A DNA stretch of 32,020 nt, taken from assembly GCF_002149035.1 (NCBI RefSeq), contig NZ_NGFP01000092.1, forward strand, positions 1 to 32,020, written 5' to 3'. The translations under genes and the position numbers were made by a program. The notes beneath the pieces were generated by a model. That model made no database searches, was not told where the DNA came from, and was given only the letters and a program-made list of their open reading frames with translations. The stretch comes from Streptosporangium minutum (GTDB lineage: Bacteria; Actinomycetota; Actinomycetes; Streptosporangiales; Streptosporangiaceae). Shown piece by piece: positions 10,052 through 32,020 of the stretch. Numbering within the stretch: the first letter of the stretch is position 1; each line of letters begins with the position of its first letter.

Positions 10052-10110
10052 GTCACGGCTTCCGGACAGGACCCCGGTGACCAGCTGTCGCCGCGCGGGC
10101 CGGCATGCCC

Positions 10111-10515
10111 TCAAGCGGCGTCGAGGGCTTCGGTGATCTTGCGGATCATCTCGGCCAGGGTGGGGCTGGGCTCGCCCTGGTGGGTCCGGGCGGCTGCTTC
10201 GATGGCGACGACGACGGTGCTGCGGAAGTTGTCGGCCTCGGCCGGAGCCTGCTTCTTGAGCAGGGTCATGGCCGCCGTCAGGGCCGGCAGCACCTGGTCG
10301 GCCAGGTCGGCTGTGGACTTGCCCCACTTCACGCCCTTGGGCGCCTTGGTGAGCACGTGCCCGACCAGGCCGGTCGCGGAGGTCAGGGCGATGGAGCCGT
10401 GGGTGGCGACCTTGTGGGCCGAGTCGGCGACGCCGGCGGCGGACATCAGCGAGACGGCGCCCCACGCGGCGGTCCGCAGGGTGAGCTTGTCCTGGTCGGA
10501 AAGGGTGATGGACAT
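10111..10515 (-). CDS. Conserved hypothetical protein, mostly helical
   Basis: 134 aa from the ATG at 10515, which has GAGGGAG about 10 nt upstream. The sequence is alanine- and lysine-rich with amphipathic helices. There is a mildly hydrophobic middle (GAVSLMSAAGVADSAHKVA) but no convincing membrane span or signal peptide. I do not recognise the family. It stands alone on the minus strand, convergent with lysR and 253 bp from the next gene, so it is probably monocistronic. Confidence 0.75.
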   Translation of the reverse strand: MSITLSDQDKLTLRTAAWGAVSLMSAAGVADSAHKVATHGSIALTSATGLVGHVLTKAPKGVKWGKSTADLADQVLPALTAAMTLLKKQAPAEADNFRSTVVVAIEAAARTHQGEPSPTLAEMIRKITEALDAA

Positions 10516-13903: not shown

Positions 13904-15223
13904 CTACGGGCGGCCGAGGGCGCGGTAGTGCCAGCCGGAGGCGCGCCAGGTTTCGGCGTCGAGGGCGTTGCGGCCGTCGACGATCTTGCGGGTGGCCACG
14001 ACGGCGCCGAGCGTCTCGGGGTCGAGGTCGATGAACTCCTGCCATTCGGTCAGCAGCAGCACCACGTGGGCGTCGCGGGCCGCCTCCAGGGCGGATTCGC
14101 CGTAGGAGAGCTCGGGGTGGGCCCGCCGGGCGTTCTCCTGGGCGACGGGGTCGTAGACGGTGACCCGGCCGCCCTGCTCGCTGATCTTGACGGCGACGTC
14201 GAGGGCGGGGGAGTCGCGGATGTCGTCGGAGTTGGGTTTGAACGCCGCGCCGAGCACGGTGACCGTACAGCCGCGGAAGGAGCCGCCGGCCAGCTCGCGG
14301 GCCAGGTCGACCATGCGGGCCCGGCGGCGCATGTTGATCGCGTCCACCTCGCGCAGGAAGGTCAGCGCCTGGTCGGCGCCCAGCTCCCCGGCTCGGGCCA
14401 TGAACGCGCGGATGTCCTTGGGCAGGCAGCCGCCGCCGAAGCCCAGGCCGGGGTTGAGGAACTTGCCGCCGATGCGGTCGTCGAAGGAGAGCGCCAGTGA
14501 CAGCTGCTTGACGTCGGCGTGTGCGGCCTCGCAGACCTCGGCCATCGCGTTGATGAACGAGATCTTGGTTGCCAGGAAGGCGTTGGCGGCGACCTTGACC
14601 AGTTCGGCGGTCGGATAGTCGGTGATCACTATCGGGGTGCCCAACTCCAGCATGGAGGCGTACACCTCGCGCATGACCTTCTCCGCCTTGTCGGAGGCCA
14701 CGCCGAGCACGATCCGGTCGGGGTACAGGGTGTCCTTCACGGCGAAGCCCTCGCGGAGGAACTCGGGGTTCCACGCCAGCTCGGCCCCCGAGCCGATGGG
14801 GGCCAGCCGGGCCAGCTTGTCGGCCAGGCGCTGGGCGGTGCCCACGGGGACGGTCGACTTGCCCAGGACCAGGCATTCGCGCTTCAGGTGCGGGGCCAGC
14901 GACTCGATCGCGGCGTCCAGGTAGGAGACGTCGGCTCCGTACTCACCGGGTTTCTGCGGGGTGCCCAGACACAGGAAGTGCACGTCGCCGAAGGCTGCGG
15001 CCTCCTCGTAGGAGGTGGTGAAGCGCAGCCGCCCGTTGGCGAGGTTGCGCCTGAGGATCTCCTGCAGACCGGGTTCGTAGATGGGCAGATCCCCGGCCTG
15101 CAGCCGGGCGATCTTCTCCGCGTCCACGTCGACACCGAGGACTTCGAAGCCCAGCTCCGCCATGCACGCGGACGTCGTCGCACCCAGGTATCCGGTTCCC
15201 ACCATCGTCAGGCGGTAGGCCAC
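13904..15223 (-). CDS. UDP-glucose 6-dehydrogenase
   Basis: 439 aa enzyme of the UDP-glucose/GDP-mannose dehydrogenase family, which oxidises UDP-glucose to UDP-glucuronate with 2 NAD+. The N-terminal Rossmann motif is GTGYLGATTSACMAELG. The catalytic cysteine C266 is in FGGGCLPKD, and the C-terminal UDP-binding part contains LGAAFKPNSDDIRDSPALDV. The GTG at 15223 has AAAGGA about 6 nt upstream and starts the protein at AYRLTMVGTGYLG, as expected. The longer open frame to 15340 overlaps the divergent promoter region. It probably supplies uronic acid for the surface polymers suggested by the right half of the window. Confidence 0.94.
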   Translation of the reverse strand: MAYRLTMVGTGYLGATTSACMAELGFEVLGVDVDAEKIARLQAGDLPIYEPGLQEILRRNLANGRLRFTTSYEEAAAFGDVHFLCLGTPQKPGEYGADVSYLDAAIESLAPHLKRECLVLGKSTVPVGTAQRLADKLARLAPIGSGAELAWNPEFLREGFAVKDTLYPDRIVLGVASDKAEKVMREVYASMLELGTPIVITDYPTAELVKVAANAFLATKISFINAMAEVCEAAHADVKQLSLALSFDDRIGGKFLNPGLGFGGGCLPKDIRAFMARAGELGADQALTFLREVDAINMRRRARMVDLARELAGGSFRGCTVTVLGAAFKPNSDDIRDSPALDVAVKISEQGGRVTVYDPVAQENARRAHPELSYGESALEAARDAHVVLLLTEWQEFIDLDPETLGAVVATRKIVDGRNALDAETWRASGWHYRALGRP

Positions 15224-15269
15224 TGGTGTTCCTTTCGCTTCTGCCCGATTATGTGCCGTCAGAGTATCG

Positions 15270-15314
15270 GTATCCCTCCTGGCGCTCGCCACCTGCACAA
15301 ACAGGTAGGGATAC
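15270..15314. promoter_or_regulatory. Nested inverted repeat between ugd and acyl-CoA dehydrogenase
   Basis: GTATCCCT (15270-15277) pairs with AGGGATAC (15307-15314), and ACCTG (15291-15295) pairs with CAGGT (15302-15306). On the right side the two arms are contiguous; on the left they are 13 nt apart. The element lies in the 145-bp divergent intergenic region, 55 bp before the acyl-CoA dehydrogenase start, and could be an operator or leader structure. Confidence 0.4.
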
Positions 15315-15368
15315 ATATCACATGTGGTGGAGCGGTCCACACTTTGTTGGACGTCCTACTATTTGCCC

Positions 15369-16532
15369 ATGAGCTTCCCTCTCTACGCGCTGCCCGAAGA
15401 GCACGACATGCTCCGGGAGACCGTCCGCGCTCTTGCCGACGAGAAGATCGCCCCTCGTGCCGCCGAGGCCGACGAGACGGGGGAGTTCCCCTGGGACGTC
15501 TACAAGGCGCTCGTCGCCGCCGACATGCACGCCGTGCACGTCCCCGAGGAGTACGGCGGGACGGGGGCCGACGCCCTCGCGACCGTCATCGTCATCGAGG
15601 AGGTGGCGCGGGCCTGCGCGTCGTCCTCGCTGATCCCCGCCGTCAACAAGCTGGGCACCGTCCCGCTGCTGCTGTCGGCCTCCGAGGAGGTCAAGCAGCG
15701 TTACCTCGCGCCGGTCGCGCGGGGTGAGGCGATGTTCTCCTACGCCCTGTCCGAGGCCGAGGCGGGCAGCGACGCCGCGGCGATGAAGACCCGCGCCGTG
15801 GCCGACGGCGACCACTACGTGCTCAACGGCGCCAAGATGTGGATCACCAACGCCGGCGTGTCGGAGTACTACACGGTGATGGCCGTGACCGAGCCGGGCG
15901 CCGGCGCCCGGGGCATCTCCGCGTTCGTCGTGGAGAAGGGCGACGAGGGCGTCAGCTTCGGGCCCAAGGAGAGGAAGCTCGGCATCAAGGGCTCCCCGAC
16001 CCGCCAGGTCATCCTGGAGAACGTGCGCATCCCCGCCTCCCGGATGATCGGCGAGCCGGGCACCGGCTTCAAGACCGCCCTGGCCACCCTGGACCACACC
16101 CGGATCACGATCGCGGCCCAGGCGCTCGGCATCGCCCAGGGCGCCCTCGACTACGCGGTGGGCTACGTCAAGGAGCGCAAGCAGTTCGGCAAGGCCGTGG
16201 CCGAGTTCCAGGGCGTGCAGTTCATGATCGCCGACATGGCCATGAAGCTGGAGGCCGCCCGGCAGCTCACCTACGCCGCCGCCGCCAAGTCGGAGCTGGC
16301 CATGCACGGCGAGCCGCAGAAGGACCTCACGTTCTTCTCCAGCGCCGCCAAGTGCGCCGCCTCCGACGCGGCCATGGAGATCACCACCGACGCCGTCCAG
16401 CTCCTCGGCGGGTACGGCTACACCAGCGACTACCCGGTCGAGCGCATGATGCGCGACGCCAAGATCACCCAGATCTACGAGGGCACCAACCAGATCCAGC
16501 GCATGGTGATGGCCCGGCAGCTCCTCAAATAG
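15369..16532 (+). CDS. Acyl-CoA dehydrogenase
   Basis: 387 aa FAD enzyme for the first step of acyl-CoA oxidation. The N-terminal helical domain, the middle beta domain (FSYALSEAEAGSDAAAM, KMWITNAG) and the C-terminal helical domain are all complete. The catalytic glutamate is expected in QIYEGTNQIQRM. The ATG at 15369 starts at SFPLYALPEEHDMLRETV, the usual beginning. In many actinobacteria this gene (fadE25-like) sits directly after purK-purE; here it is 11.6 kb away. A hairpin terminator follows. Confidence 0.96.
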   Translation: MSFPLYALPEEHDMLRETVRALADEKIAPRAAEADETGEFPWDVYKALVAADMHAVHVPEEYGGTGADALATVIVIEEVARACASSSLIPAVNKLGTVPLLLSASEEVKQRYLAPVARGEAMFSYALSEAEAGSDAAAMKTRAVADGDHYVLNGAKMWITNAGVSEYYTVMAVTEPGAGARGISAFVVEKGDEGVSFGPKERKLGIKGSPTRQVILENVRIPASRMIGEPGTGFKTALATLDHTRITIAAQALGIAQGALDYAVGYVKERKQFGKAVAEFQGVQFMIADMAMKLEAARQLTYAAAAKSELAMHGEPQKDLTFFSSAAKCAASDAAMEITTDAVQLLGGYGYTSDYPVERMMRDAKITQIYEGTNQIQRMVMARQLLK

Positions 16533-20154: not shown

Positions 20155-21672
20155 TCATTTTTTGCAGATGTTCTCGGTGGCGGTCCTGGCCGTGGGGAGG
20201 GCGCTCCGGTCCGGGGCCGGAGTCGCGGTCGGCTTGACGGCGTCGTCGACGGTGACCTTCTTGGTCCCCTGGTACTTCCGGCCGGCGACCACTTCGATCC
20301 GGTCGCCGAGGTCCTCCACCAGGCGTGTGTCCGAGCCGGGCAGAGCGGCGGCCAGGGTCCGCGCCGAGTCCTCGCGGCCCTTGCCGTACCGGATGACCGT
20401 CTTGTCGTGGTCCCTCTTCTGGGTGTCGCCGGCGATCTCGGGGACCAGGAAGCCGGCCTTCAGCAGGTCCGCGCGGGTCCGCGCGCCGAGGCCGGTGATC
20501 AGGGTGCCGTTGAGCACCTTGACCGAGATCCGCGAGGGCGGCACGGTCAGCGCGGTGGCCGAGGGGGACGGCGTCGCGCTCGACGCCGGGGTCGGGGTCG
20601 CCGTGGACTTGGCGGGCTTGGTGAGCGGCTCGTCGGCGGCGATCCGACGGAACAGCTCCTTGGACGCCTCCTTGTCCCAGAGCACGGCGGACTCGTTGGT
20701 CGGCGTCTTGTAGTCGACGTCGGCGAGCGGGACGGTGGCGAAGGCCACGTCGTCGGTGGAGACGTCCTTGAGCTGGTTGGCCAGGCCGAGCAGGTCCTTG
20801 CGGAGCGCGTCGTCCACCCGGAGCGTGCCGAGGGCGGTGTCGACGAACGAGGCGAGCCTGACCGGGTTGGTGAGCGTGTCGCCGCTGAGGGCCTGGTGCA
20901 GCAGGGCGGAGATCACCTGCTGCTGGCGGTCGATGCGGTCCAGGTCGGAGCGGGCGGTGGCGCGGGTGCGGGCGTAGGCGAGGGCCTTGACGCCGTCGAG
21001 GGAGTAGGTGCCGGGCTGGAGCGTGAGCGCGGTCTTGGGGTCGTTGATCGCGACCGGGGTGCAGACCGAGACTCCGCCCAGCGCGTCGACCACCTCGATG
21101 AAGCCCAGGACGTTGACCTCGACGTAGTGGTGGATGGTCAGCCCGGTGGCGTTCTGCACCGTCCGCACGGCGAGCTTCGGGCCGCCGAGCTGGTAGGCGG
21201 CGTTGATCTTGTGTGTGCCCTTGCCGGGGACCGTCGTCCAGGTGTCGCGGGGGAGGCTGACCACGGTGGCCCTGGTGTGGTCCTCGGAAAGGTGGATCAC
21301 CATCATGGTGTCGGTCCGCTCGCCGCTCTCGCGGCCCAGCTTGAGCCGGTTCTGCTGCTGGCGGGAGAGGTTGTCGCGCCTGTCCACGCCGACCACCAGG
21401 ATGTTCATCGCGCCGGTGGACTGCGAGCCGGGCACGCCGGCGTCGACCGCCTCGATCTTCTTCTCGGCGTAGTTCGTCAGCGCCCACGTCACTCCGGAGC
21501 TCCCCAGGACCAGGCACGAGAGCGCGCCGGCGACGAACAGGCCGCGCCGCCGGGACCGGGCGCCCCTGACGGACCTGCGGTCACGTCTCGGGTTCACCGG
21601 GGTCACCCGGACCGTGCCGTAGGCGTCACCGCCCACCTGCACACCCGAGTCGTCCTCTTCCGGGTCGCGCAT
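20155..21672 (-). CDS. LytR-CpsA-Psr (LCP) family wall-polymer ligase
   Basis: 505 aa from the ATG at 21672. It has a cytosolic basic N-terminus, one membrane segment at about residues 44-66, an LCP domain (NILVVGVDRRD, VSLPRDTW, HKINAAYQLGG, YARTRATARSDLDRIDRQQQ) and a C-terminal LytR_C domain (ISVKVLNGTLITGLG onwards). LCP enzymes transfer glycopolymers such as teichoic acids or arabinogalactan from their lipid carrier to peptidoglycan outside the membrane. A Pro/Thr/Ser-rich linker separates the two domains. It is divergent from the glycosyltransferase gene by 53 bp, which fits a shared role in wall-polymer assembly. Confidence 0.94.
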   Translation of the reverse strand: MRDPEEDDSGVQVGGDAYGTVRVTPVNPRRDRRSVRGARSRRRGLFVAGALSCLVLGSSGVTWALTNYAEKKIEAVDAGVPGSQSTGAMNILVVGVDRRDNLSRQQQNRLKLGRESGERTDTMMVIHLSEDHTRATVVSLPRDTWTTVPGKGTHKINAAYQLGGPKLAVRTVQNATGLTIHHYVEVNVLGFIEVVDALGGVSVCTPVAINDPKTALTLQPGTYSLDGVKALAYARTRATARSDLDRIDRQQQVISALLHQALSGDTLTNPVRLASFVDTALGTLRVDDALRKDLLGLANQLKDVSTDDVAFATVPLADVDYKTPTNESAVLWDKEASKELFRRIAADEPLTKPAKSTATPTPASSATPSPSATALTVPPSRISVKVLNGTLITGLGARTRADLLKAGFLVPEIAGDTQKRDHDKTVIRYGKGREDSARTLAAALPGSDTRLVEDLGDRIEVVAGRKYQGTKKVTVDDAVKPTATPAPDRSALPTARTATENICKK

Positions 21673-21725
21673 GCGTGGCCCCCTAGGCTCGGCTGGGTCG
21701 ATGAGGTACCCGTCCGTACAGTAGC

Positions 21726-22769
21726 GTGAGCGACGCCATGAAGCAGTTCCCCGACTCGCCCGCGCCGGCGTCGTCTCCCGAGACACGTGTCTGGCCCCCC
21801 ATCTCCATCGTCATCCCGGTGCTGAACGAGGAGCGCCATCTGCGGGAGGCGGTGCGTCAGGTCCTCGCGCAGCGATACGCCGGACCGATCGAGGTCGTGC
21901 TCGCGATCGGCCCCTCCCAGGACCGCACCCAGGAGGTCGCGGACGCGATCGCGGCCGAGGATCCCCGGGTGACCGTGGTCCCGAACCCGACCGGACGCAC
22001 CCCCAACGCCCTCAACGCCGCCATCGGCGCCTCCCGCAGCGGGATCATCGCCCGCGTGGACGGCCACGCCATGCTCCCGGAGGACTACCTCCAGGTCGCG
22101 GTGGAGACGCTTGAGGAGACCGGCGCCGACAACGTCGGCGGCGTCATGGCCGCCGAGGGCGTCACGCCGTTCGAGAAGGCCGTGGCCCGTGCCATGACCT
22201 CCAAGATCGGTGTCGGCGGCGCCCGGTTCCACACCGGCGGCACCGCGGGCCCGGCCGACACGGTCTACCTCGGCGTGTTCCGCCGCGAGGCGCTGGAGCG
22301 GGTCGGCGGCTACGACGAGCACTTCCAGCGGGCGCAGGACTGGGAGATGAACCACCGCATCCGCGAGACGGGCGGCCTGGTCTGGTTCCAGCCCCGGATG
22401 CGCGTCTCCTACCGGCCGAGGCCCACCGTCAAGGCCCTCGCCCAGCAGTACTTCCACTACGGCCGCTGGCGCAGGGTGGTCGCCCGCACCCACGAGGGCA
22501 CCATCAACCTGCGCTACCTGGCGCCCCCGGCGGCCGTGCTGGCCATCCTCGCCGGCCTGGTCGTCTCCCCGTTCTTCTGGCCCGGCCTGCTGATCCCCGC
22601 CGGCTACCTGGCGGCGATCCTGGCCGGCTCGGCGGTGACCGGCAGCGGCCTGCCCACGGCCTCGCTCGTCCGGCTGCCGCTGGTCTACGTCACCATGCAC
22701 ATGTCATGGGGCTGGGGCTTCCTGACGAGCCCGAAGCGTCTGAGCAAGTCCGAGCGGCCACGGGGCTGA
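21726..22769 (+). CDS. Family 2 glycosyltransferase, ExoA-like
   Basis: 347 aa. The N-terminal GT-A domain has the usual ISIVIPVLNEERHL start, a metal-binding motif in RVDGHA (in place of strict DXD) and a probable catalytic QDWEMNHRI segment. Two C-terminal membrane segments (about 262-305) anchor it, as in ExoA-type enzymes of exopolysaccharide synthesis. It should add sugars to a lipid-linked intermediate on the inner face of the membrane. The start is GTG at 21726 or ATG at 21738. It is divergent from the LCP gene and convergent with the TagF-like gene. Confidence 0.93.
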   Translation: MSDAMKQFPDSPAPASSPETRVWPPISIVIPVLNEERHLREAVRQVLAQRYAGPIEVVLAIGPSQDRTQEVADAIAAEDPRVTVVPNPTGRTPNALNAAIGASRSGIIARVDGHAMLPEDYLQVAVETLEETGADNVGGVMAAEGVTPFEKAVARAMTSKIGVGGARFHTGGTAGPADTVYLGVFRREALERVGGYDEHFQRAQDWEMNHRIRETGGLVWFQPRMRVSYRPRPTVKALAQQYFHYGRWRRVVARTHEGTINLRYLAPPAAVLAILAGLVVSPFFWPGLLIPAGYLAAILAGSAVTGSGLPTASLVRLPLVYVTMHMSWGWGFLTSPKRLSKSERPRG

Positions 22770-22796
22770 CGCGCCGGGGCCTGCCCGCCGCCGGTC

Positions 22797-24662
22797 TCAG
22801 CCCTCTCCTCGTACGGCGGCGACATCGGTCCCGGCCGTGCCCGCCCCGTGTACGGCGGCGACACCGGTCCCGGCCGTGTCCGCCCCGCGTGCGGCGCGGC
22901 CGTAGGCGGCGTTCACCGCGTCGTTGAAACGGGTCATGGCGTCCGGATGGTCGGGGCCGAGCAGGTAGGACTTCAGCTTGTGCCTGGTGGCCGCCAGGAC
23001 GTCCTCCCCGTCCTGCTCCAGGGCCGCCAGGACGGCGGGCAGCTCGCCCAGGCCCCGGGTGAGCAGGTAGCCGGCCTCCGTGCTCGGATACCGCTCGCGG
23101 AAGGTCCGCTCCGGCAGCCCCGCCACGTTGGTCACCACGTACGGCTTGCCGCTGGCGATGAAGTCCGCCACCACGCTGGAGATGTCGGTGACCATCAGGT
23201 CGGCCTGGTTGAAGCAGTCGTAGAGGGGCGGTTCGGAGCCGGTGACGGCCTGGTGCCTGATCGGCTCGGCGCGGACCGCGCCGGCGGGATGGCGGGCGAT
23301 GGACCGGGACAGCTCGGCCCCCTCCAGGATCGCGAGGATCTCCTCGTGCGCGCGGCGCGCGGCCGGGTTGCGGTAGCCGGTCAGCGGGTGCGGCTTGTAG
23401 ATCACCCGGAGCGCGGGGGAGTGGGCGAGCAGGGCGCGGACGATCGGGGGCCCCATCGTGATGATCGAGGTGTGGAACAGGTCGTCGGTCCACCCCTCCC
23501 AGGTGGGGGCGTAGAGCACGGTGCGGTACGGCAGGCCGGGGCCGGTGGTGCGGACGCCGGTGAGCTGCGGGCGGCCCACCTCGTGGATGTCCTCGTCGCA
23601 CACGCCCACCCGCGCGCGGAGATACCGGTCGCGGCCGGCCTGCCCGGCCACCCACACCTCGTCGTAGACCTTGGTGAACGGGTTGAACGACGCCTCCTTG
23701 TCGCTGTCCCCGTGGCCGACGAAGACGCTGCGCATCCCCCGGATGCGGAGCATGTGGATGTTCTTGCCGACGTTGGACGGATACAGGCACACGCGGGCGG
23801 AGTCGAGCGCCCCGAAGCTCATCAGGTCGGCCGCCGACGGGATGCAGACCACCGGCAGCGAGGTCTCTCCCAGCAGCCGGAGCATGTTCCGCTCCCGCAG
23901 GACCACCACCGCCCGCCGGTCGATCCGCTCCAGCGGGCGCAGCCACATGGTGACCTGGTAGGCCGAGTCGTTCGGCCCGGAGAAGTAGAGGATCACCTCC
24001 GGCCCGTATCTGGCGAGGCGCCTGTTGACCGCCTTCAGCGTGCCGCGCCGGTTCTTGAGCGGCTGGATCCGGCGCAGGTGGGGCAGGAGACCGATCGCGC
24101 CCGCGGCGCCGAGGCCGAGTGCGGCCACGGCCCCGCCCGCCCCCGGGAGGCCGGTGCCGAGCACCGCGCCCAGGGCGGCGCCGCCGACCGGGAGCATGTC
24201 CAGGTAGAGCATCCGCATGCTCCCGTGGTCGACCAGGACGGCCGACGGAGGCGGGGGGAGCCGCAGCACGCCGTCGATGTTGCGGGTCAGCACCGGGAGC
24301 TGGTTGAGGACGCCGCTGTAGGTGATCGCGAGCCAGGCCTGCAGGGCCCGCACGCCGTGCAGGGTGAACAGCCCCAGGACCAGGAGCGTGAACCAGGGCG
24401 AGTCGGTGCCCGCCGTACGGGCGACCAGGAGGATCGCGGCCGTCTCGCGCATCATGAACCGCAACGTGACGCCCAGGCGCACCCTGCTGAGCAGGTCGAC
24501 CACCCGGCGGGCCCGCCGCCTGGCGGCGATCTCGGCCGCGTACGACAGCGCGCAGACCGCCAGGAACAGCCACGGCAGGGGCCACAGGGCGGCGACGACG
24601 AGCAGTGGATACGAGCCGACCAGGGCGGCGCACGCCATCAGGGCACGAGGGTCACGCGTCAT
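22797..24662 (-). CDS. CDP-glycerol glycerophosphotransferase family (TagF-like)
   Basis: 621 aa. The first 200 residues hold several membrane segments, and the rest is the glycosyl/glycerophosphate transferase domain. Hallmarks are VFVGHGDSDKEASFNPF, YAPTWEG, YKPHPLTG and DLMVTDISSVVADFIASGKP. Such enzymes polymerise glycerol- or ribitol-phosphate from CDP-polyols onto a lipid-linked acceptor. The last 30 residues are Gly/Ala/Thr repeats encoded by a 39-bp tandem repeat. It lies 50 bp downstream of the fused cytidylyltransferase/reductase gene on the same strand, which would supply its CDP-polyol. Confidence 0.93.
   Translation of the reverse strand: MTRDPRALMACAALVGSYPLLVVAALWPLPWLFLAVCALSYAAEIAARRRARRVVDLLSRVRLGVTLRFMMRETAAILLVARTAGTDSPWFTLLVLGLFTLHGVRALQAWLAITYSGVLNQLPVLTRNIDGVLRLPPPPSAVLVDHGSMRMLYLDMLPVGGAALGAVLGTGLPGAGGAVAALGLGAAGAIGLLPHLRRIQPLKNRRGTLKAVNRRLARYGPEVILYFSGPNDSAYQVTMWLRPLERIDRRAVVVLRERNMLRLLGETSLPVVCIPSAADLMSFGALDSARVCLYPSNVGKNIHMLRIRGMRSVFVGHGDSDKEASFNPFTKVYDEVWVAGQAGRDRYLRARVGVCDEDIHEVGRPQLTGVRTTGPGLPYRTVLYAPTWEGWTDDLFHTSIITMGPPIVRALLAHSPALRVIYKPHPLTGYRNPAARRAHEEILAILEGAELSRSIARHPAGAVRAEPIRHQAVTGSEPPLYDCFNQADLMVTDISSVVADFIASGKPYVVTNVAGLPERTFRERYPSTEAGYLLTRGLGELPAVLAALEQDGEDVLAATRHKLKSYLLGPDHPDAMTRFNDAVNAAYGRAARGADTAGTGVAAVHGAGTAGTDVAAVRGEG
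22811..22888 (-). repeat. 39-bp tandem repeat in the 3' end of the TagF-like gene
   Basis: Two units, 22811-22849 and 22850-22888, differ at 3 of 39 positions, and a partial third unit begins after them. Each encodes 13 residues of an A-V-(H/R)-G-A-G-T-A-G-T type, so the reading frame is kept. The tail is probably an unstructured, variable-length extension. Confidence 0.85.
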
Positions 24663-24712
24663 CTTCCGACGCTAACCCGTGTGCCGGTGTTTGCCCTGGT
24701 AGGCGCGCTGTG

Positions 24713-26125
24713 TCAGGTTCCGTCGAGGCGGACGTCGATCACGTGCCCGGTGAGGCGGGAGATGAGCACGTCCAGGGAGGTCTGGGCGACGGCGCGCGGT
24801 GAGAGCAGGGTATGTGCCGGTTCCTCGCCGAAAGCGCGGACCCGCATCGGGGTGCTGGTCCGCTCCGGGTTGACGCAGTTGACCCGCACGCCGTACTCGG
24901 CCCACTCGTCGGCGAGGGCCTGGGTCAGGTTCACCACGGCGGCCTTCGTCGAGGAGTAGAGGCTGTAGTCGGCCCGGCCCCGCGTGTAGGAGGAGGAGGT
25001 GTAGAGCAGCAGGTGCCCCCGGGTCTCGCGGAGATGGCCGATGGCCGCCCTGGCGATGTTGACGGGACCGAGGTAGTTCACCCCCACGGTCTCGGCGATC
25101 GTGGTGTCGTCCACCTCGCCGAGCTTGCCCATGTGCAGCACGCCGGCGGTGTTGACCACGTAGTCGATCCTGCCGGTCTCCTTGGCCGCGTGGGCGAGGG
25201 CGTCCTCGACCGCCTGGGGGTCCTCGACGCGCACCCCGTTCAGCGACCGGGAGAAGGAGAACACCTCGGCGCCGTGGCGTCCGGCGAGGTCGACCACGTC
25301 GGCGCCGATGCCGTAGCTGCCGCCGAAGACCACCATCGTCCTGCCCTCCATCGCCTCCCGGTAGGCGAAGGGGGAGTGCTCCGGGGCGGTGCCCGCGGCG
25401 AGCTGGAAGAGCTTGTCGGCGATGAACACGTCCACCGGGTGGGTGACCTTCATGTTGTGCTCGCTGCCCGGCACGATGTAGATCGGCACGTCGGGCAGGT
25501 AGCGCAGCACCACGCCGCAGTCGTCGGTGGGCGGCCGCCTGTCGAAGTCGGGGTCGGCGAAGGCCCGCTCGTAGGCCTCGCGGATCACCGAGAGCCGGAA
25601 ACACTGCGGCGTCTGGCCGCGCCGCAGCCCGGACCGTTCGGGGATGTCGCGGACGATCTCCCCGCGCGGGCCGGGAGCGGCCACCACGATCGTGTCGGAG
25701 CTCGGGATCGCCACGTCGACGGCCGAGTAGACCTTCAGGGCCTCCACGCACTCGGTGATGATCCGGGGCTCCAGCAGGGGCCTCACGGCGTCGTGCAGGA
25801 GCACGTCGCACTCCTGGGCGCCCAGCGCCTTCAGGGCCCGCCAGGTCGTCTCGGGACGGCTCGCGCCCCCCTCCAGGATCTTGCCGACCTTCCTGAAGCC
25901 GTTGAGCGCGACGATCCGCTCCACCTCGTCGGTGAAGCCCGGGGTCATCATCACGATGATCTCGTCGACCTCCGGCGCGCCCTCGAACAGCGCGAGGGTG
26001 TGTTCGAGGATCGTCTTTCCGGCGATCTTGACAAGCTGCTTGGGGGTGTTGAGGCCGACACGCTGGCCGACACCGCCGGCAAGGACGACCCCGACGGTGC
26101 GTAGGCGTGGTTCGAGAGCGGCCAA
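24713..26125 (-). CDS. Bifunctional cytidylyltransferase / SDR reductase (Bcs1-like)
   Basis: 470 aa fusion. Residues 1-240 are an IspD/TarI-type cytidylyltransferase (LAGGVGQRVG at 15-24, PKQ at 28-30, HDAVRP at 111-116). Residues 263-470 are a short-chain reductase with GGSYGIG at 268-274, NTAG, and the catalytic YSSTK (Y390, K394). The same architecture is known from Haemophilus influenzae Bcs1, which reduces ribulose 5-phosphate and makes CDP-ribitol; that activity is the likeliest one here. The TTG start at 26125 is preceded by AAGGAAG. It sits just upstream of the TagF-like gene, suggesting CDP-ribitol feeds a poly(ribitol phosphate)-like polymer. Confidence 0.92.
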   Translation of the reverse strand: MAALEPRLRTVGVVLAGGVGQRVGLNTPKQLVKIAGKTILEHTLALFEGAPEVDEIIVMMTPGFTDEVERIVALNGFRKVGKILEGGASRPETTWRALKALGAQECDVLLHDAVRPLLEPRIITECVEALKVYSAVDVAIPSSDTIVVAAPGPRGEIVRDIPERSGLRRGQTPQCFRLSVIREAYERAFADPDFDRRPPTDDCGVVLRYLPDVPIYIVPGSEHNMKVTHPVDVFIADKLFQLAAGTAPEHSPFAYREAMEGRTMVVFGGSYGIGADVVDLAGRHGAEVFSFSRSLNGVRVEDPQAVEDALAHAAKETGRIDYVVNTAGVLHMGKLGEVDDTTIAETVGVNYLGPVNIARAAIGHLRETRGHLLLYTSSSYTRGRADYSLYSSTKAAVVNLTQALADEWAEYGVRVNCVNPERTSTPMRVRAFGEEPAHTLLSPRAVAQTSLDVLISRLTGHVIDVRLDGT

Positions 26126-26280
26126 GATCTGCTTCCTTCAACGGTCCGGATAGGGCGAGCGTAATGGGTGCGTACCCGATCGCAGGTCGCGCTCCCGTGC
26201 TATCCCGTCAAGATCTCGCTACGCTGAGTACGCACTCCCCGATTCGTACGGTGATCCCGTCGGATACGAAGGAGCCCGGT

Positions 26281-27894
26281 TTGCATGACTCTCACGTCCC
26301 CGCCGCGTCCGGCGTCCGCCGGACGGCCGCCGTGGTGCTCGCCACCATGGAGGCGGCGGCCCTGCGCTGCGCCGACGGCACGCTGCTCGACCGGCTGACC
26401 GATCAACTCGTCCGGCTCCCGGTGGGCGACGTGCATGTGGTCGCCCGCTCCAGCGAGATCATCCATGCCCCCGGCGGCACCTACATGATCGGTTCGGAGG
26501 GCTCGCGGGGGCTCGCCGACGACCTGCGGAGGGTCGCCGCCGTGGCCCGGACGGCCACCGCCCCGGTGGCCGTGGTGGCGGGAGACCTGGTGGCCCACAC
26601 CGAGGCGCTTGCCCTGCTCCTGGAGCATCCGGCGCGCGACACGGGCGCGCTGGTGATCACGGGCGGTGAGGACTCCGGGCCGTCGCGCCCGCCGGTCCGG
26701 GTCGAGGGCGGCCGGGTGGTCGCCGCGGGCACGTCCTTCCACGACGTCGTCGACGCCAACGGCACCTTCAGGGGCGTGCTCCAGGTCGGCGCGGCCGATC
26801 TCGCCGTCCTCGCCGAGACCGCGGAGACGCTGGCCGAGCGGGCCGAGGCCGGCGGGTTCGGCCCGATGGACGGCGCCGAGGCCGGCGACCTCCTCCTGGT
26901 CGGGCTGGTCCGCGTCGGCGTCCCGGTGCGCGCCTGCGGGATCGGGCGGCTGCACTGCGACCGGGTGGCCGGGCAGGAGGGCGCCGACGCGGCCGTGCTG
27001 CGGCTGGGCGAGGTGGACGAGGACCGCGCCCGGCTGGAGCTCGCGGTGAAGGCCGACGACGGCTTCTTCACCACCCACTTCGTGAGCTCCTGGTCCACCC
27101 ACCTGGTCAAGCTGGCGGCCGACCTGCACCTGACGCCGAACGCGGTCACCGGGATCTCCGTCGGCCTGGCCGCCCTCGCCGCGGTCTGGTTCACCGCGGG
27201 CACCCGCGAGGCGCAGATCGCCGGGGCCGTCCTGCTCTACCTGTCGTTCGTGCTCGACTGCGTGGACGGCCAGCTCGCCCGCTACACCCGCGCGTTCTCC
27301 CCGCTCGGCGCGTGGCTGGACGCCACCTTCGACCGGGTCAAGGAGTACGCCGTCTACGTGGGCCTCGCCATCGGCTACGCGGCCGGGACGGACGACTCCC
27401 GCGGCGGCCCGCACGGCATCTGGGCGCTGGCGGTCGCGGCGATGATCCTGCAGATGCTCCGCCACATGATCGACTTCTCCTACGCGGGAGCCCGCGCCGA
27501 CGCCGGACGGCCGGAGGCGGCCGGGTCCGGGACGGCCGCCTCGCTGACCGCCCCGGCCGACGCGTCCATGGGGGCGGCGCCGCGGCGGACGCCGCAGGAG
27601 CGGTCGGCCGAGGTCGCGGACGGGATCGCCGCCGCGGAGCGCTACCTGCGGGAACGGCAGGGCTCCGGCTCGGGGAACGCGGTCGTCAGGCTGTCGCGCC
27701 GGCTGGAGCGGATCTCCTTCACCCGCTGGTTGAAGAAGATCATCGTGCTCCCCATCGGGGAGCGGATGGCCCTGATCGCGGTGACCGCCGCGGTGTTCAA
27801 CGCGCGGGTGACCTTCATCGCGCTGCTGGTCTGGGGCGGCGTCGCCGCCCTCTACACGGTCGCGGGCAGGATCGGCAGGTCCTTCAGCCGATGA
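26281..27894 (+). CDS. Degenerate nucleotidyltransferase fused to CDP-alcohol phosphotransferase
   Basis: 537 aa from the TTG at 26281, with AAGGAG 7 nt upstream. The first 250 residues resemble a sugar nucleotidyltransferase fold, but the LAAGXGXR loop is replaced by VVLATMEAAALRC, so it has probably lost CTP binding. The rest is a membrane CDP-alcohol phosphotransferase with the full motif: D326, D329-G330, A333-R334, G343, D347 and D351. It should join a CDP-activated alcohol to another alcohol, releasing CMP. The architecture resembles the archaeal and thermophile IPCT-DIPPS fusion. The next gene begins within the stop codon (ATGA). Confidence 0.85.
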   Translation: MHDSHVPAASGVRRTAAVVLATMEAAALRCADGTLLDRLTDQLVRLPVGDVHVVARSSEIIHAPGGTYMIGSEGSRGLADDLRRVAAVARTATAPVAVVAGDLVAHTEALALLLEHPARDTGALVITGGEDSGPSRPPVRVEGGRVVAAGTSFHDVVDANGTFRGVLQVGAADLAVLAETAETLAERAEAGGFGPMDGAEAGDLLLVGLVRVGVPVRACGIGRLHCDRVAGQEGADAAVLRLGEVDEDRARLELAVKADDGFFTTHFVSSWSTHLVKLAADLHLTPNAVTGISVGLAALAAVWFTAGTREAQIAGAVLLYLSFVLDCVDGQLARYTRAFSPLGAWLDATFDRVKEYAVYVGLAIGYAAGTDDSRGGPHGIWALAVAAMILQMLRHMIDFSYAGARADAGRPEAAGSGTAASLTAPADASMGAAPRRTPQERSAEVADGIAAAERYLRERQGSGSGNAVVRLSRRLERISFTRWLKKIIVLPIGERMALIAVTAAVFNARVTFIALLVWGGVAALYTVAGRIGRSFSR

Positions 27895-28604
27895 CCGGGA
27901 ACGGCGGTTCCGCGGCCGGCGGGACGGGAGGCACGGCCCGCGGGGCACTCCGCGGAACCGGTGAGGAGACGAACGCGACCATGGTTTCCGTCCACATGAC
28001 GCCGGTGCCGCGCGGCACCGTGATGGCCTACCGGGACGACGGGGTCCTGTCGCGGGCGATGGGCAACCTGGTCGCCGGGCAGCTCCCGCCGCTGCCGCCG
28101 GCGCTCGTCGGGATCTTCGTGACCGGAGTGCTGCTGATGGTCGGCGTGGCCGGCGCCGACGGGCTGGCGGTGTTCGCCCCCGCGGTGGCGCTGCTGCTGG
28201 CCGGTCCCGGCAGCTCCCACCCGCACGACGGCAGGCTCGACTGGCTGGTCCCGCCGATCCTGCGCCTGACCGAGTACGGATTCGTGGCCTCGGTCGGGTT
28301 CGCGCACGGCGTGCCGCCGTGGTTGATCTTCCTGCTGCTCGGCGCGATGGCCTTCCACCACTACGACGTCGTCTACCGGGTGCGCCAGCGCGTCTACCCG
28401 CCGCCCTGGCTGGCCACGGCCGGACTGGGCTGGGACGGCCGTATGCTGCTGATCGCGCTGGGCGGCCTCGCGGGGCAGGTCACGCTGGTCTTCGTCCTGC
28501 TCGCGCTCTACCTGTGGGGGTTCTTCGGGTGGGAGAGCGTCACCTGCTGGGTGGCCGCGCCGCGCTCGGGGGTGGACGCGGCCGATCTGGGCGCCCACGA
28601 TTGA
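27891..28604 (+). CDS. DUF5941 membrane protein
   Basis: 237 aa with four or five membrane segments after a 35-residue Gly-rich start. The AYRDDGVLSRAMGNLVAGQLPPLPP stretch (here in two halves), GPGSSHPHDGRLDWLVPPILRLTEYGF, and GLGWDGRMLLIALGG are the features I recall for DUF5941. In Streptomyces this domain is often the C-terminal part of the preceding CDP-alcohol phosphotransferase. Here a 4-bp overlap separates the two, so they are a split version of that protein. Internal ATGs (for example at 27981) could also serve as starts. The function is unknown, but it probably acts with the phosphotransferase. Confidence 0.8.
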   Translation: MTGNGGSAAGGTGGTARGALRGTGEETNATMVSVHMTPVPRGTVMAYRDDGVLSRAMGNLVAGQLPPLPPALVGIFVTGVLLMVGVAGADGLAVFAPAVALLLAGPGSSHPHDGRLDWLVPPILRLTEYGFVASVGFAHGVPPWLIFLLLGAMAFHHYDVVYRVRQRVYPPPWLATAGLGWDGRMLLIALGGLAGQVTLVFVLLALYLWGFFGWESVTCWVAAPRSGVDAADLGAHD

Positions 28605-28618
28605 GAACGCCCGGCAAA

Positions 28619-28640
28619 CCCTTGATTACACGATCAGGGG
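28619..28640 (+). terminator. 8-bp hairpin between DUF5941 and nucleotidyltransferase genes
   Basis: CCCTTGAT (28619-28626) pairs with ATCAGGGG (28633-28640) with one G-T pair and a 6-nt loop. It lies 14 nt after the DUF5941 stop in an AT-richer 85-bp gap and may be a weak terminator or attenuator within the operon. Confidence 0.35.
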
Positions 28641-28707
28641 CTAAAGCCAACTAACCTTTGGGGCCAGGAGTGCCCGCCGAGGGGCTCACTTGGATGAGGA
28701 GCGCACG

Positions 28708-29442
28708 TTGCTGGGAATGGTGCTGGCCGCCGGGGCCGGACGACGCCTGCGGCCGTACACGGACACGCTGCCCAAGGCGTTGGTGCCGGTCGACGGCGAG
28801 ACCACGATCATGGACATCTCGCTGCGGAACCTCGCGGCGGCCGACCTCCGTGACGTCGTGGTCATCGTCGGTTACCAGGCGCAGGCCGTACACGAGCGCA
28901 AGGCCGAGCTGGAGCGGCGGCACGGTGTGAAGCTCACCCTCGTGCACAACGACAAGGCCGAGGAGTGGAACAACGCCTACTCCCTGTGGTGCGCGCGCGA
29001 CTACTTCGACCAGGGTGTGCTGCTGGTCAACGGCGACACGGTGCACCCGGTCTCCGTCGAGCACACGCTGCTGTCGGCGCCCGCGACCAGTGACATCCTG
29101 CTCGCGGTCGACGCGGTGAAGAGGCTCGCCGACGAGGAGATGAAGGTCACCCTCGACGGTGACGGCCATCTCAAGCTGATCACCAAACTGATGGACCCGG
29201 CCGACGCCGCGGGTGAGTACATCGGCGCGACGCTGATCCGCCCCGGTATCGGCGAGCGCCTCGCCGACGCCCTCCAGGCCACCTTCGAGCGCGACCCGCA
29301 GCTCTACTACGAGGACGGCTACCAGGAGCTGGTCGCCCGCGGTGAGAAGATCGCGGTCGCCCCGATCGGCGATGTCCCGTGGGTCGAGGTCGACAACCAC
29401 GACGACCTCGCCAAGGCGCGGGAGATCGCGTGCCGATACTAG
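28708..29442 (+). CDS. Sugar/polyol-phosphate nucleotidyltransferase (LicC/IPCT-like)
   Basis: 244 aa. The intact nucleotide-binding loop VLAAGAGRRLRPYTD and the following LPKALVPV identify an active nucleotidyltransferase of the group often annotated as phosphocholine cytidylyltransferase; WNNAYSLWCARDYF and LLVNGDTVH are also typical. It probably makes a CDP-activated alcohol for the neighbouring phosphotransferases. The TTG at 28708 has GAGGAG 6 nt upstream; an in-frame TTG at 28690 is the alternative. The next gene starts 13 bp before its stop, so expression is coupled. Confidence 0.88.
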   Translation: MLGMVLAAGAGRRLRPYTDTLPKALVPVDGETTIMDISLRNLAAADLRDVVVIVGYQAQAVHERKAELERRHGVKLTLVHNDKAEEWNNAYSLWCARDYFDQGVLLVNGDTVHPVSVEHTLLSAPATSDILLAVDAVKRLADEEMKVTLDGDGHLKLITKLMDPADAAGEYIGATLIRPGIGERLADALQATFERDPQLYYEDGYQELVARGEKIAVAPIGDVPWVEVDNHDDLAKAREIACRY

Positions 29443-30488
29443 CCAGAATGCTGCCCGCCCCGCTGACCATGGAGGTGCGGCGGGGCGCGATCGCCCAGCT
29501 CGGCTCGTTGCTGGCCGACAGCCGGGTGGCGACCTCCGGGCGGGTGGCGGTGGCGGTGGGCGCGGGCCAGGGCGACCGGATCGCCTCGGTGATCGCCCCC
29601 TCGCTCGGCGAGGCCCAGGTCTTCCGGGTCCCCGACGGCTCGGTGGACGCGGCCGTCTCGCTCGGCGCCGACCTGCGCAAGGGCGCCTACGAGGCGGTCG
29701 TCGGGATCGGCGGCGGCAAGACCATCGACGCGACCAAGTACGCCGCGTCGCTCGCCGGCATCCCCATGGTGGCGGTGGCCACCAACCTGTCGCACGACGG
29801 GATCTGCTCGCCGGTGGCGTCGCTGACGCACGACGGCGGCAAGGGCACCTTCGGCGTGCCCATGCCGCTGGCCATCATGGTGGATCTCGATTTCGTCCAC
29901 GACGCGCCGCCGTCCCTGGTCCGTTCCGGGGTCGGAGACGTGGTGAGCAACCTGTCGGCGATCGAGGACTGGCAGCTCGGCAACGCCGAGCGGGGCGAGC
30001 CGATCGACGGCCTGGCCTGCGCGATGGCCCGCACCGCGGCGGAGGCCCTGATCGGCCGGAACGACTCGATCGAGTCCGACGCCTTCCTCACCGTGCTGGC
30101 CGAGGCGCTCATCCTCTCGGGGATGTCGATGGTGATCGCCGGGTCCTCCCGTCCCTCCAGTGGCGGAGACCATGAGATCCTTCATGCCGTGGATCAGCTT
30201 TTTCCCGGCACTTCCAACCACGGCGAGCTCGCCGGGGTCGGTGCCGCCTTCTGCTTCTTCCTCCGCGAGGACTCCCGGAGGCTCAACCAGGTCGTCGACT
30301 GCCTGCGCGGGCACGAGCTGCCGGTCACCCCCGTCGATCTGGGGCTGACCGTCGAGCAGTTCACCGAGGCGGTCATGCTGGCGCCCTCGACCCGTCCAGG
30401 GCGTTACACGATCCTGGAGCACCTGCGCCTGTCGGAGCCTGAGATTCGCGATCGGGTGGAGGATTATGTCCGGGCCGTCGGTCGCTGA
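29430..30488 (+). CDS. Glycerol-1-phosphate dehydrogenase family protein
   Basis: 352 aa member of the iron-containing alcohol dehydrogenase superfamily, closest in pattern to sn-glycerol-1-phosphate dehydrogenases (AraM/EgsA type). VVGIGGGKTIDATKYAASLAG binds NAD(P). Metal ligands are expected at D123 (NLSHDG), H248 (GGDHEILH) and H264 (NHGELAG), and all are present. The usual reaction is DHAP reduction to glycerol-1-phosphate. The GTG at 29430 has GGAG 5 nt upstream and overlaps the previous gene; the following gene overlaps its end by 23 bp. It may provide the polyol phosphate for the adjacent nucleotidyltransferase. Confidence 0.92.
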   Translation: MPILARMLPAPLTMEVRRGAIAQLGSLLADSRVATSGRVAVAVGAGQGDRIASVIAPSLGEAQVFRVPDGSVDAAVSLGADLRKGAYEAVVGIGGGKTIDATKYAASLAGIPMVAVATNLSHDGICSPVASLTHDGGKGTFGVPMPLAIMVDLDFVHDAPPSLVRSGVGDVVSNLSAIEDWQLGNAERGEPIDGLACAMARTAAEALIGRNDSIESDAFLTVLAEALILSGMSMVIAGSSRPSSGGDHEILHAVDQLFPGTSNHGELAGVGAAFCFFLREDSRRLNQVVDCLRGHELPVTPVDLGLTVEQFTEAVMLAPSTRPGRYTILEHLRLSEPEIRDRVEDYVRAVGR

Positions 30489-31233
30489 GCTCCGTGCGGT
30501 CGCCCAGCCGCACTCGACCATGGACCGCAACAGCGGCGAGCACTGGGCCGGCTCGCTGTACATGCGGAAGCTGTCGATCTACGTCACCTGGTTCCTCGCC
30601 AAGACGCCGATCACCCCCAACCAGACCACCTGGCTGATGATCCTGTCCGGGGTGCTGGCGGGCGTGGTCATCGCGCTCCCCGGCCTCTGGGCCGCGGTCG
30701 GCGCCGCGCTGCTGATCCAGCTCTACCTGCTGCTCGACTGCTCCGACGGCGAGCTGGCGCGGTGGACCAGGCGGACCTCCATCACCGGCGTCTACCTGGA
30801 CCGGGTCGGCCACTACTTCGCCGAGGCCGCCCTGCTCATCGGGCTGGGCTTCCGGGCGTCGGAGACCCTTCCCGACTGGTACACCGTGATGGGCTTCGCC
30901 GCCGCGCTCGGCGCCATCCTGATCAAGGCGGAGACCGACCTGGTCGACGTGGCCCGCGCCCGGTCCGGCCTGGTCGCGGCGGCTGAGAGCTCGGCCGAGC
31001 AGTTCCAGTCGCGCGGCCTGGGCATGGCCCGCAAGGCCGCCGCCGCCCTGAAGTTCCACCGGCTCGTCCAGGCCGTCGAGCTGTCGATCATCGTGGTCGT
31101 CGCCGCGGTGTGGGACCTGCTCGCGGGCGGCCTGGCCGCCACCCGGGTGCTCGTGGTGGCCTGTGTCGTGGTCGCCGTGCTGCAGATGGCACTGCACTTG
31201 ATCAGCATCCTGGCCTCCAGGCGGCTTTCATGA
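30466..31233 (+). CDS. CDP-alcohol phosphotransferase with altered last Asp
   Basis: 255 aa with about six membrane segments. The motif begins at D91 (DCSDGELAR: D91, D94-G95, A98-R99), continues with G108 and D112, but has H116 where the family motif calls for a fourth Asp, the proposed catalytic base. From memory, LDRVGHY is shared by similar Streptomyces proteins, so this may mark a subfamily and not a defect. The ATG at 30466 has GGAGG 3 nt upstream and overlaps the dehydrogenase gene. It should transfer a phosphoalcohol from a CDP-alcohol to an unknown acceptor in the membrane. Confidence 0.88.
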   Translation: MSGPSVAELRAVAQPHSTMDRNSGEHWAGSLYMRKLSIYVTWFLAKTPITPNQTTWLMILSGVLAGVVIALPGLWAAVGAALLIQLYLLLDCSDGELARWTRRTSITGVYLDRVGHYFAEAALLIGLGFRASETLPDWYTVMGFAAALGAILIKAETDLVDVARARSGLVAAAESSAEQFQSRGLGMARKAAAALKFHRLVQAVELSIIVVVAAVWDLLAGGLAATRVLVVACVVVAVLQMALHLISILASRRLS

Positions 31234-31399
31234 GGAACCGGAGAGCGGTGCGGTGCGTCGTAGGTGCGGACACCTCGTTGTTTGGCAGGTGTTCGCCGAC
31301 GGTTCCGATACGCTTGCTTTCCGGTAAGTCAGAAACGTTCAGCCATGCCACATGTGCCCGACCCAGCAGACTCGGTGATCATGAAAGTATGCTCCGCAC

Positions 31400-32020
31400 G
31401 TGCTCTCGACGCGTCAGGACGATGACCCGTTGAAGATCTCGTGCGTCATCCTCACCATGGGTAATCGGGTCCCCGAGCTGGATCGGGCCGTCGAGTCCGC
31501 GCTGCGCCAGACCGACGGCGACGTCGAGGTGGTCATCGTCGGCAACGGCGCGGACGTCCCCGAGCTGTCGGTCGCCGCGCCGGAGGGCTCGTCCGCCTCG
31601 ATCAAGACCGTGCGGCTCAGCCACAACACGGGCATCCCGGCGGGCCGCAACCGCGGCGTCGAGGAGTGCTCGGGCGACGTGGTGCTCTTCCTGGACGACG
31701 ACGGCTGGTACGGCGCGACGGACGTCGTCTCCCACCTGCGTGAGCGTTTCTCCACCGAGCACGACCTGGCCGTCGTCTCCTTCCGGGTGATGGACCCCGA
31801 GGGCGGCTCCGGCCAGCGGCGCCACGTCCCCCGCCTGCGGGCGGGGGACCCCGAGCGGTCCTCCCCGGTCACCACCTTCCTGGGCGGCGCCTGCGCCATC
31901 CGCCGGTCCGCCTTCCTGCAGGTCGGCGGCCTCCCCGAGCGGTTCTTCTACGCTCACGAGGAGACCGACCTGGCCTGGCGGCTGCTCGGCGAGGGCTACC
32001 GCATCGAATACGACGCCCAG
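31400..32020 (+). CDS. Family 2 glycosyltransferase, cut by window end
   Basis: At least 207 aa; the frame runs open to the last base. After KISCVILTMGNRVPEL comes the GT-A fold with the metal-binding DDD at about residues 99-101 (LFLDDDGWY), a segment with HNTGIPAGRNRGVE, and LGGACAIRRSAFLQVGGLPERFFYAHEETDLAWRLL (positions about 165 onwards), as in rhamnosyltransferase-like GT2 enzymes. The start is GTG at 31400 or TTG at 31430. A TATGCT hexamer ends 7 nt before the GTG, which would suit a leaderless transcript. A 166-bp gap separates it from the phosphotransferase gene. Confidence 0.9.
   Translation, partial: MLSTRQDDDPLKISCVILTMGNRVPELDRAVESALRQTDGDVEVVIVGNGADVPELSVAAPEGSSASIKTVRLSHNTGIPAGRNRGVEECSGDVVLFLDDDGWYGATDVVSHLRERFSTEHDLAVVSFRVMDPEGGSGQRRHVPRLRAGDPERSSPVTTFLGGACAIRRSAFLQVGGLPERFFYAHEETDLAWRLLGEGYRIEYDAQ

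Follow-up and report, generated by a model that had tools for sequence, protein, structure and literature searches.

Gene content of the locus

The window analysed here is a stretch of 32,020 nucleotides from Streptosporangium minutum (contig NZ_NGFP01000092.1, handled as C541 of a 9.58 Mb host genome). From position 20155 onwards it carries a gene cluster around a predicted sn-glycerol-1-phosphate dehydrogenase (G1PDH), which an earlier, sequence-only reading had taken for a candidate locus of phosphopolyol or wall polymer synthesis. The proteins of the window were scanned with Pfam and NCBIfam profiles, and every gene of that earlier list proved to be an open frame with family support. Two entries were refined: the first CDP-alcohol phosphotransferase (CDP-AP) gene encodes a two-domain fusion, and the last family 2 glycosyltransferase (GT2) gene is cut by the contig end. 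The genes are as follows:

20155-21786, minus strand: LCP glycopolymer ligase with a LytR_C domain (PF03816 160 bits, PF13399 56 bits)
21726-22769, plus strand: GT2a, glycosyltransferase, start perhaps further downstream (PF00535 87 bits)
22797-24662, minus strand: TagF-like membrane protein, accessory neighbour (PF04464 25.7 bits, residues 381-510 only)
24713-26125, minus strand: IspD-SDR fusion, accessory neighbour (PF01128 148 bits, PF00106 113 bits)
~26281-27894, plus strand: CAPfus, degenerate cytidylyltransferase-like domain fused to a CDP-AP domain (PF01066 42 bits)
27891-28604, plus strand: DUF5941 protein (PF19365 89.7 bits)
28708-29442, plus strand: NTP, nucleotidyltransferase of the LicC/IPCT/PntC type (PF00483 54.7 bits)
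29430-30488, plus strand: G1PDH, EgsA/AraM family (NF002022 233 bits)
30466-31233, plus strand: CAP2, CDP-AP-like membrane protein (PF01066 25.9 bits)
31400-32020, plus strand: GT2b, family 2 glycosyltransferase, cut by the contig end (PF00535 73 bits)

NTP and G1PDH overlap at 29430-29442 and G1PDH and CAP2 at 30466-30488, as expected of one operon. The start of CAPfus is uncertain, its frame being open from 26107. Streptosporangium canum (L053) has a G1PDH 100% identical to this one, and a second, weaker Fe-ADH_2 match (32.7 bits) was found in the genome of the window (G000:C535:28248-28703).

Conservation of the block and of the NTP-G1PDH pair

Conservation was analysed in named loci, which are the best 80 of 539 and therefore close relatives; 79 loci longer than 9 kb were used (L125, 4.6 kb, was dropped). 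A gene was counted as present when a match above 60 bits lay anywhere in the locus, a lone IspD domain counting as IspD-SDR. Matches to NTP, G1PDH, CAP2 and GT2b occurred together in 79 of 79 loci, which excludes a chance grouping and, in a comparison that the sequence-only reading had proposed, bears out the block as a conserved unit. CAPfus and DUF5941 were matched in 78 loci, as were LCP and the IspD-type domain, GT2a in 76 and TagF in 44; the ribitol-type fusion, the TagF-like gene, LCP and the first GT2 are variable neighbours. The order NTP-G1PDH-CAP2-GT2b was found in 19 of 20 loci carrying five family labels, the exception being L045, where the contig stops 1.2 kb past G1PDH and CAP2 was not found in that stretch. 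Downstream of the block in a locus of the same genus (L035, 12603-18574) lie genes for a pyridoxal phosphate-dependent decarboxylase, a PfkB kinase, an acetoacetate-decarboxylase family protein, a family 1 glycosyltransferase and an acyltransferase.

In a phylum sample of 296 genomes, 155 of them without a match, a G1PDH clade scoring above 430 bits was found in 20 genomes (21 copies), with the next score at 251 bits. All 11 genomes of family f16 among the matches listed carry this G1PDH, and the genomes of the same class seem to be listed in full. This family is probably Streptomyces, a reading based on the squalene/phytoene synthase and ABC-2 exporter genes next to the locus, which fit the Streptomyces synteny araM, CDP-AP, nucleotidyltransferase, GT2, tagG, tagH, crtB given in passages of PMC13118837, where it is filed under teichoic acid and secondary metabolism. 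At 16 of the 20 loci fetched around G1PDH sites of the phylum sample the four genes stand in order.

The arrangement of NTP and G1PDH was tabulated for 82 loci (57 first-tier and 25 second-tier), which include three near-duplicate pairs and thus represent about 79 distinct loci. In 75 of the 82, spanning 12 family labels, NTP immediately precedes G1PDH and is read from the same strand: the two genes abut or overlap in 54 of 57 first-tier loci (not in L175, L178 and L181) and in 21 of 25 second-tier loci (not in L182, L187, L197 and L244), L187 being uninformative as the locus starts at the gene. CAP2 follows G1PDH within 100 bp in 51 of 57 first-tier loci but never does so in the 25 second-tier loci, although in L182 a CDP-AP gene with the canonical motif follows a second-tier G1PDH. 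Deeper actinobacterial lineages thus have the NTP-G1PDH pair on its own, and the pair is older than the block, with the reservation that most second-tier loci come from two families, f22 and f55. That a dehydrogenase and a cytidylyltransferase-type enzyme stay together longest suggests that one makes the other's substrate. In one f22 locus (L184, 10132-14883) the pair is followed by genes for two type I phosphodiesterases and a bacterial sugar transferase, and the deep-lineage genome concerned (G168) has no PF04464 match. In L175, which is probably Streptomyces, a second G1PDH copy (9379-10506) occurs without NTP and CAP2. It is flanked by genes that resemble, by eye, rne and rplU-rpmA-obg, and two strong PF04464 genes are some 6 and 8 kb away.

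G1PDH and NTP resemble enzymes of G1P formation and CTP-dependent activation

Among NCBIfam models, that for G1PDH (NF002022) matches the dehydrogenase far better than any other, with 233 bits against 58 bits for glycerol dehydrogenase. Of the solved structures, 3ce9, which bears the name glycerol dehydrogenase, scores highest (204 bits), followed by proteins named G1PDH, 4rgq (199 bits), 4rfl and 5fb3 (169-199 bits). Over the PDB, proteins named G1PDH scored 106-199 bits and those named glycerol dehydrogenase 53-71 bits, except for 3ce9. Asp123, His248 and His264 are invariant in 15 sequences and align with Asp, His and His of 4rgq; we take these residues to be metal ligands. The dehydrogenase assignment of the sequence-only reading is supported by its best model match, by the retained Asp/His/His residues and by the lock of the gene to a cytidylyltransferase-type gene. 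It is proposed on these features that the enzyme reduces dihydroxyacetone phosphate (DHAP) to sn-glycerol-1-phosphate (G1P).

The closest solved relatives of NTP are the CTP:phosphocholine cytidylyltransferase LicC (66 bits), 4jd0 (58 bits; inositol-1-phosphate CTP transferase by its title) and PntC (6pd1, 52 bits), and the protein carries the N-terminal nucleotide-binding signature of this family. Its solved relatives use CTP, UTP, ATP, GTP or dTTP, the other nucleotides being used by weaker matches. As the partner of G1PDH, NTP is proposed to be a CTP:sn-glycerol-1-phosphate cytidylyltransferase.

Unusual features of CAP2, CAPfus and DUF5941

The closest solved relatives of CAP2 are AF2299 (58 bits) and IPCT-DIPPS (27 bits). 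CAP2 departs from the CDP-AP motif D..DG..AR.{8}G...D...D in that the fourth Asp, presumably the catalytic base, is replaced. Over 115 loci (including six duplicate pairs) this position holds His in 75 and Ala in 40, and Asp in none. The absence of the family's fourth Asp from CAP2 is a new observation. His is found in the window, while the Streptomyces-like loci have Ala, as does every Nonomuraea locus except L111.

In the best CAPfus-type matches of at least 100 bits the motif Asp is kept in 106 of 107, with Ala in L090; these matches include the second-tier CDP-AP of L182. CAPfus of the window has the four-Asp motif intact, and its first domain reaches 21.4 bits to PF12804 (cut-off 27). By sequence, CAPfus is closest in the PDB to AF2299 and IPCT-DIPPS, and the top Foldseek match of its model (pLDDT 85.7) is IPCT-DIPPS 4mnd (E 5e-13, TMq 0.35), the low whole-chain TM-score arising because the domains are placed differently from those of IPCT-DIPPS. 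The model of the first domain matches IPCT chains (TMt ~0.7) although its sequence signature is degenerate; comparison of this domain with NTP by hhalign gave no significant match.

Foldseek ranks 1-17 for the DUF5941 model (pLDDT 76.6) are all CDP-APs, with probabilities of 0.95-1.00, TMq of 0.46-0.54 and a best E of 1.6e-3, none being under 0.001. Profile comparison with CAPfus and CAP2 and a search against PDB sequences gave no significant match, and the CDP-AP motif is absent. It is the modelled structure that suggests a possible degenerate CDP-AP-like fold for DUF5941, which would be new. No mention of this family was found in the literature searched. In the Streptomyces-like locus L168, CAPfus and DUF5941 form one chain of 619 residues. 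Within CAPfus, ARAGORN called a tRNA-Arg(ccg) at 26469-26565 (minus strand); this call is probably spurious.

TagF-family, exporter and alternative pathway genes

The TagF-like protein of the window (P0003) gave no match in a PDB sequence search, and three PF04464 genes stronger than its own lie elsewhere in the same genome. In family f55, sampled with 101 genomes, a TagF/TagB-type gene adjoins the NTP-G1PDH pair in 7 of 10 second-tier loci (L190, L242, L245, L246, L247, L249 and L250), in two arrangements, beside NTP or beside G1PDH, and always on the opposite strand. Six of these genes were scored at 313-330 bits to PF04464, the seventh (L246) being near-identical to that of L245. Near 4 of the 10 f55 loci (L190, L242, L243 and L247) a gene was named by eye as glycerophosphodiesterase-like. 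Among relatives, PF04464 was matched in 28 of 29 genomes with this G1PDH and in 3 of 12 without it (Fisher p 6e-6, kinship ignored).

ABC-2 exporter genes accompanied by an ABC ATPase follow GT2b in L168 (44 bits) and in L162 (22.8 bits, below the cut-off of 26.9); in L043 (23.4 bits, likewise below it) their place is between IspD and DUF5941. In L168 (11814-15774), which is probably Streptomyces, the block and the exporter genes are followed by squalene/phytoene synthase genes that look like a hopanoid cluster.

Geranylgeranylglyceryl phosphate synthase (GGGPS, PF01884) was above cut-off in none of 41 relatives (29 of them with this G1PDH) and in none of 28 other genomes; three weak partial matches lay under the cut-off in these 69 genomes, and positive controls were matched. 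TagD (TIGR01518), with a strict cut-off of 165 bits, was above it in 0 of 41, 0 of 28 and 0 of 17 genomes (0 of 86 in all), positive controls again being matched.

Accessory and flanking genes

The architecture of the IspD-SDR fusion is, as we assume, Bcs1-like, making the protein a possible CDP-ribitol-type synthase; it is equally close to solved methylerythritol phosphate and ribitol-5-phosphate cytidylyltransferases (101 and 100 bits). The sequence-only reading had placed two CDP-polyol routes, of ribitol and glycerol-1-phosphate type, side by side. Candidate genes for both are present in the window, but they are not equal partners: in about 20 kb read around 11 Streptomyces-like main loci, NTP-G1PDH-CAP2 is present and neither IspD-SDR nor TagF was matched. 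A possible extension of the locus to the left comprises two genes found by the profile scan:

13904-15340, minus strand: UDP-glucose dehydrogenase
15324-16532, plus strand: acyl-CoA dehydrogenase

The same two genes also stand left of LCP, GT2a, NTP and G1PDH in the distant locus L045.

Discussion

Taken together, protein families, gene order, conservation and the lack of GGGPS and TagD above cut-off lead us to favour, at somewhat better than even confidence, a path from DHAP through G1P and CDP-1-glycerol to the transfer of phosphoglycerol to an envelope acceptor; from the same evidence we infer each of the reactions as well as stereochemistry, acceptor and polymer. G1PDH would reduce DHAP to G1P, and the LicC-like NTP encoded directly upstream would activate it with CTP to give CDP-1-glycerol. 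CAP2, together with CAPfus and its DUF5941 half, would then hand the phosphoglycerol unit to an envelope acceptor, which the GT2 enzymes may extend. An ABC-2-type exporter may move the product outside, and in Streptosporangiales the LCP ligase may attach it to peptidoglycan, while in some lineages a TagF/TagB-type enzyme may replace the phosphotransferase. A narrower version, in which actinobacteria would make a teichoic or lipoteichoic acid of the envelope from cytoplasmic CDP-sn-1-glycerol, arriving at the sn-1 configuration of lipoteichoic acid without LtaS, and the acceptor of CAP2 would be a phosphate such as polyprenyl phosphate, is offered tentatively and is, in our estimate, rather doubtful; a phosphate acceptor needs no general base, which would explain the lost fourth Asp of CAP2.

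Several observations weigh against the CDP-1-glycerol path. The G1PDH score lies below the curated NF002022 cut-off of 413 bits, and the specificity of NTP is not readable from its sequence. NTP is not beside G1PDH in L175, L178, L181, L182, L197 and L244. CAP2 is not within 100 bp in L045, L050, L163, L175, L178 and L241; it lies further off in L050 and L241, and in L163 another CDP-AP occupies its place. Lacking the fourth Asp, CAP2 may not be an ordinary transferase. PF04464 is without a match in 8 of 9 second-tier and 4 of 19 first-tier genomes scanned, so that TagF was rejected as a universal consumer and something else must use the activated glycerol there. Neither LCP nor GT2a turned up within about 20 kb around the Streptomyces-like main loci, which places the wall-attachment step outside the core, slightly lowers our confidence in the path and raises that in a glycerophosphoinositol-type product; together with the neighbours seen in L184 it indicates that products may differ between lineages. 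Weak TagD-like matches occur at 59-66 bits in 5 of 11 Streptomyces-like genomes, at up to 49 bits in the 17-genome set and, best among the 41 relatives, at 109 bits in a genome without this G1PDH (G030:C10:159353-159721), which, given the strict cut-off, means that a divergent TagD may exist.

An alternative that we consider unlikely is a small phosphodiester, either soluble or a lipid headgroup, resembling glycerophosphoinositol or di-inositol phosphate; instead of a polymer, CDP-1-glycerol (or CDP-inositol) would react with an inositol phosphate acceptor. In its favour, AF2299 and IPCT-DIPPS are the nearest PDB relatives of CAP2 and CAPfus, and NTP is related to IPCT; passages of PMC8262930 describe an Archaeoglobus fulgidus activity, its enzyme unidentified, that prefers glycerol-1-phosphate (Gro1P), and a use of CDP-1-glycerol for archaeal glycerophosphoinositol. 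The neighbours, however, are GT2 genes, joined in several lineages by genes for LCP, TagF-family proteins and ABC-2 exporters, and no inositol-phosphate synthase was found among the window frames scanned, the flanks of relatives not having been searched for one.

Distinctly less probable is a different substrate, the iron-dependent alcohol dehydrogenase (Fe-ADH) using another keto-phosphate or dihydroxyacetone and NTP activating another alcohol phosphate, for example in a ribitol-like route or one like the CDP-2-glycerol pathway of pneumococcus. The score of G1PDH below its curated cut-off, the diverse substrates of its family and the IspD-SDR genes nearby are compatible with this, whereas 233 against 58 bits favours the G1PDH model and the PDB scores agree except for 3ce9.

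That G1P feeds membrane phospholipids of archaeal handedness, with ether or acyl chains, appears improbable. G1PDH is classically the enzyme of archaeal lipids, and both stereo-forms are reported as substrates of PlsY and PlsC (passages of PMC13400652), but the locked partner is a cytidylyltransferase-type gene and neither a prenyl- nor an acyltransferase. The sequence-only reading had considered an unusual phospholipid; ether-lipid synthesis is downgraded because no GGGPS was above cut-off in 69 genomes, a result that leaves acyl lipids unaffected. An ordinary wall teichoic acid locus for an sn-3 glycerol or ribitol polymer with G1PDH as an incidental passenger is very improbable, for although LCP, TagF-like and IspD-SDR genes are present and Streptomyces is known to have polyglycerolphosphate teichoic acids (excerpts of PMC3196553), the NTP-G1PDH pair outlasts the other locus members across the phylum and TagD was above cut-off in 0 of 86 genomes.

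The favoured CDP-1-glycerol path retains the sequence-only interpretation in its conserved block, its G1PDH features, its cytidylyltransferase linkage and the wall-polymer genes around it, and corrects it on other points. With G1P as the true precursor, glycerol phosphate of a configuration opposite to that of normal teichoic acid had been considered as one outcome, yet G1P is not foreign to bacterial walls: in the published view, as given in passages of PMC7086022 and PMC5974469, CDP-glycerol is the sn-3 form and lipoteichoic acid contains sn-1 units drawn from phosphatidylglycerol. New would be the CDP-activated form. CDP-1-glycerol was regarded in 2021 as likely absent from bacteria (passages of PMC8262930), and lipoteichoic acid synthesis in actinobacteria lacking a clear LtaS orthologue was named an open question in 2011 (excerpts of PMC3196553). 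Among the matches listed, judged by titles, abstract openings and passages, none describes a CDP-1-glycerol route in actinobacteria, and a literature search on SCO6753-SCO6758 returned one unrelated paper. The locus is a concrete and widespread candidate bearing on both questions and, if the path is true, would represent a new way of supplying a major building block of the wall. It further suggests that G1PDH of actinobacteria has a role outside lipid synthesis; the family is drawn on in discussions of the lipid divide and of the last common ancestor (passages of PMC6431249 and PMC5059525).

Comparison with known systems

With the wall teichoic acid pathway (TagD-TagB-TagF) the proposed system would share a CDP-polyol donor and, in several lineages, TagF-family, exporter or LCP genes near the core. 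It differs in the proposed origin of G1P from G1PDH, in a LicC-like activation instead of TagD and in the CDP-AP-like genes of its core. LtaS-dependent lipoteichoic acid synthesis would likewise result in sn-glycerol-1-phosphate units, but LtaS draws the unit from phosphatidylglycerol outside the cell (passages of PMC7086022), while a cytoplasmic CDP donor is proposed here. AraM of Bacillus subtilis belongs to the same dehydrogenase family as the G1PDH of the locus and serves heptaprenylglyceryl phosphate together with a GGGPS homologue (passages of PMC6431249 and PMC5059525), none of which was above cut-off in the genomes searched here. The archaeal CDP-APs IPCT-DIPPS and AF2299 share their two-domain architecture and folds with CAPfus, and CAP2 is of the same superfamily by sequence; in the locus, however, the first domain of CAPfus is degenerate, CAP2 is without the fourth Asp, and NTP and CAP2 are separate genes. 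Finally, NTP belongs to the same sequence family as LicC and PntC and has the NN..YS stretch in common with LicC, but differs from both in that its partner gene is G1PDH.

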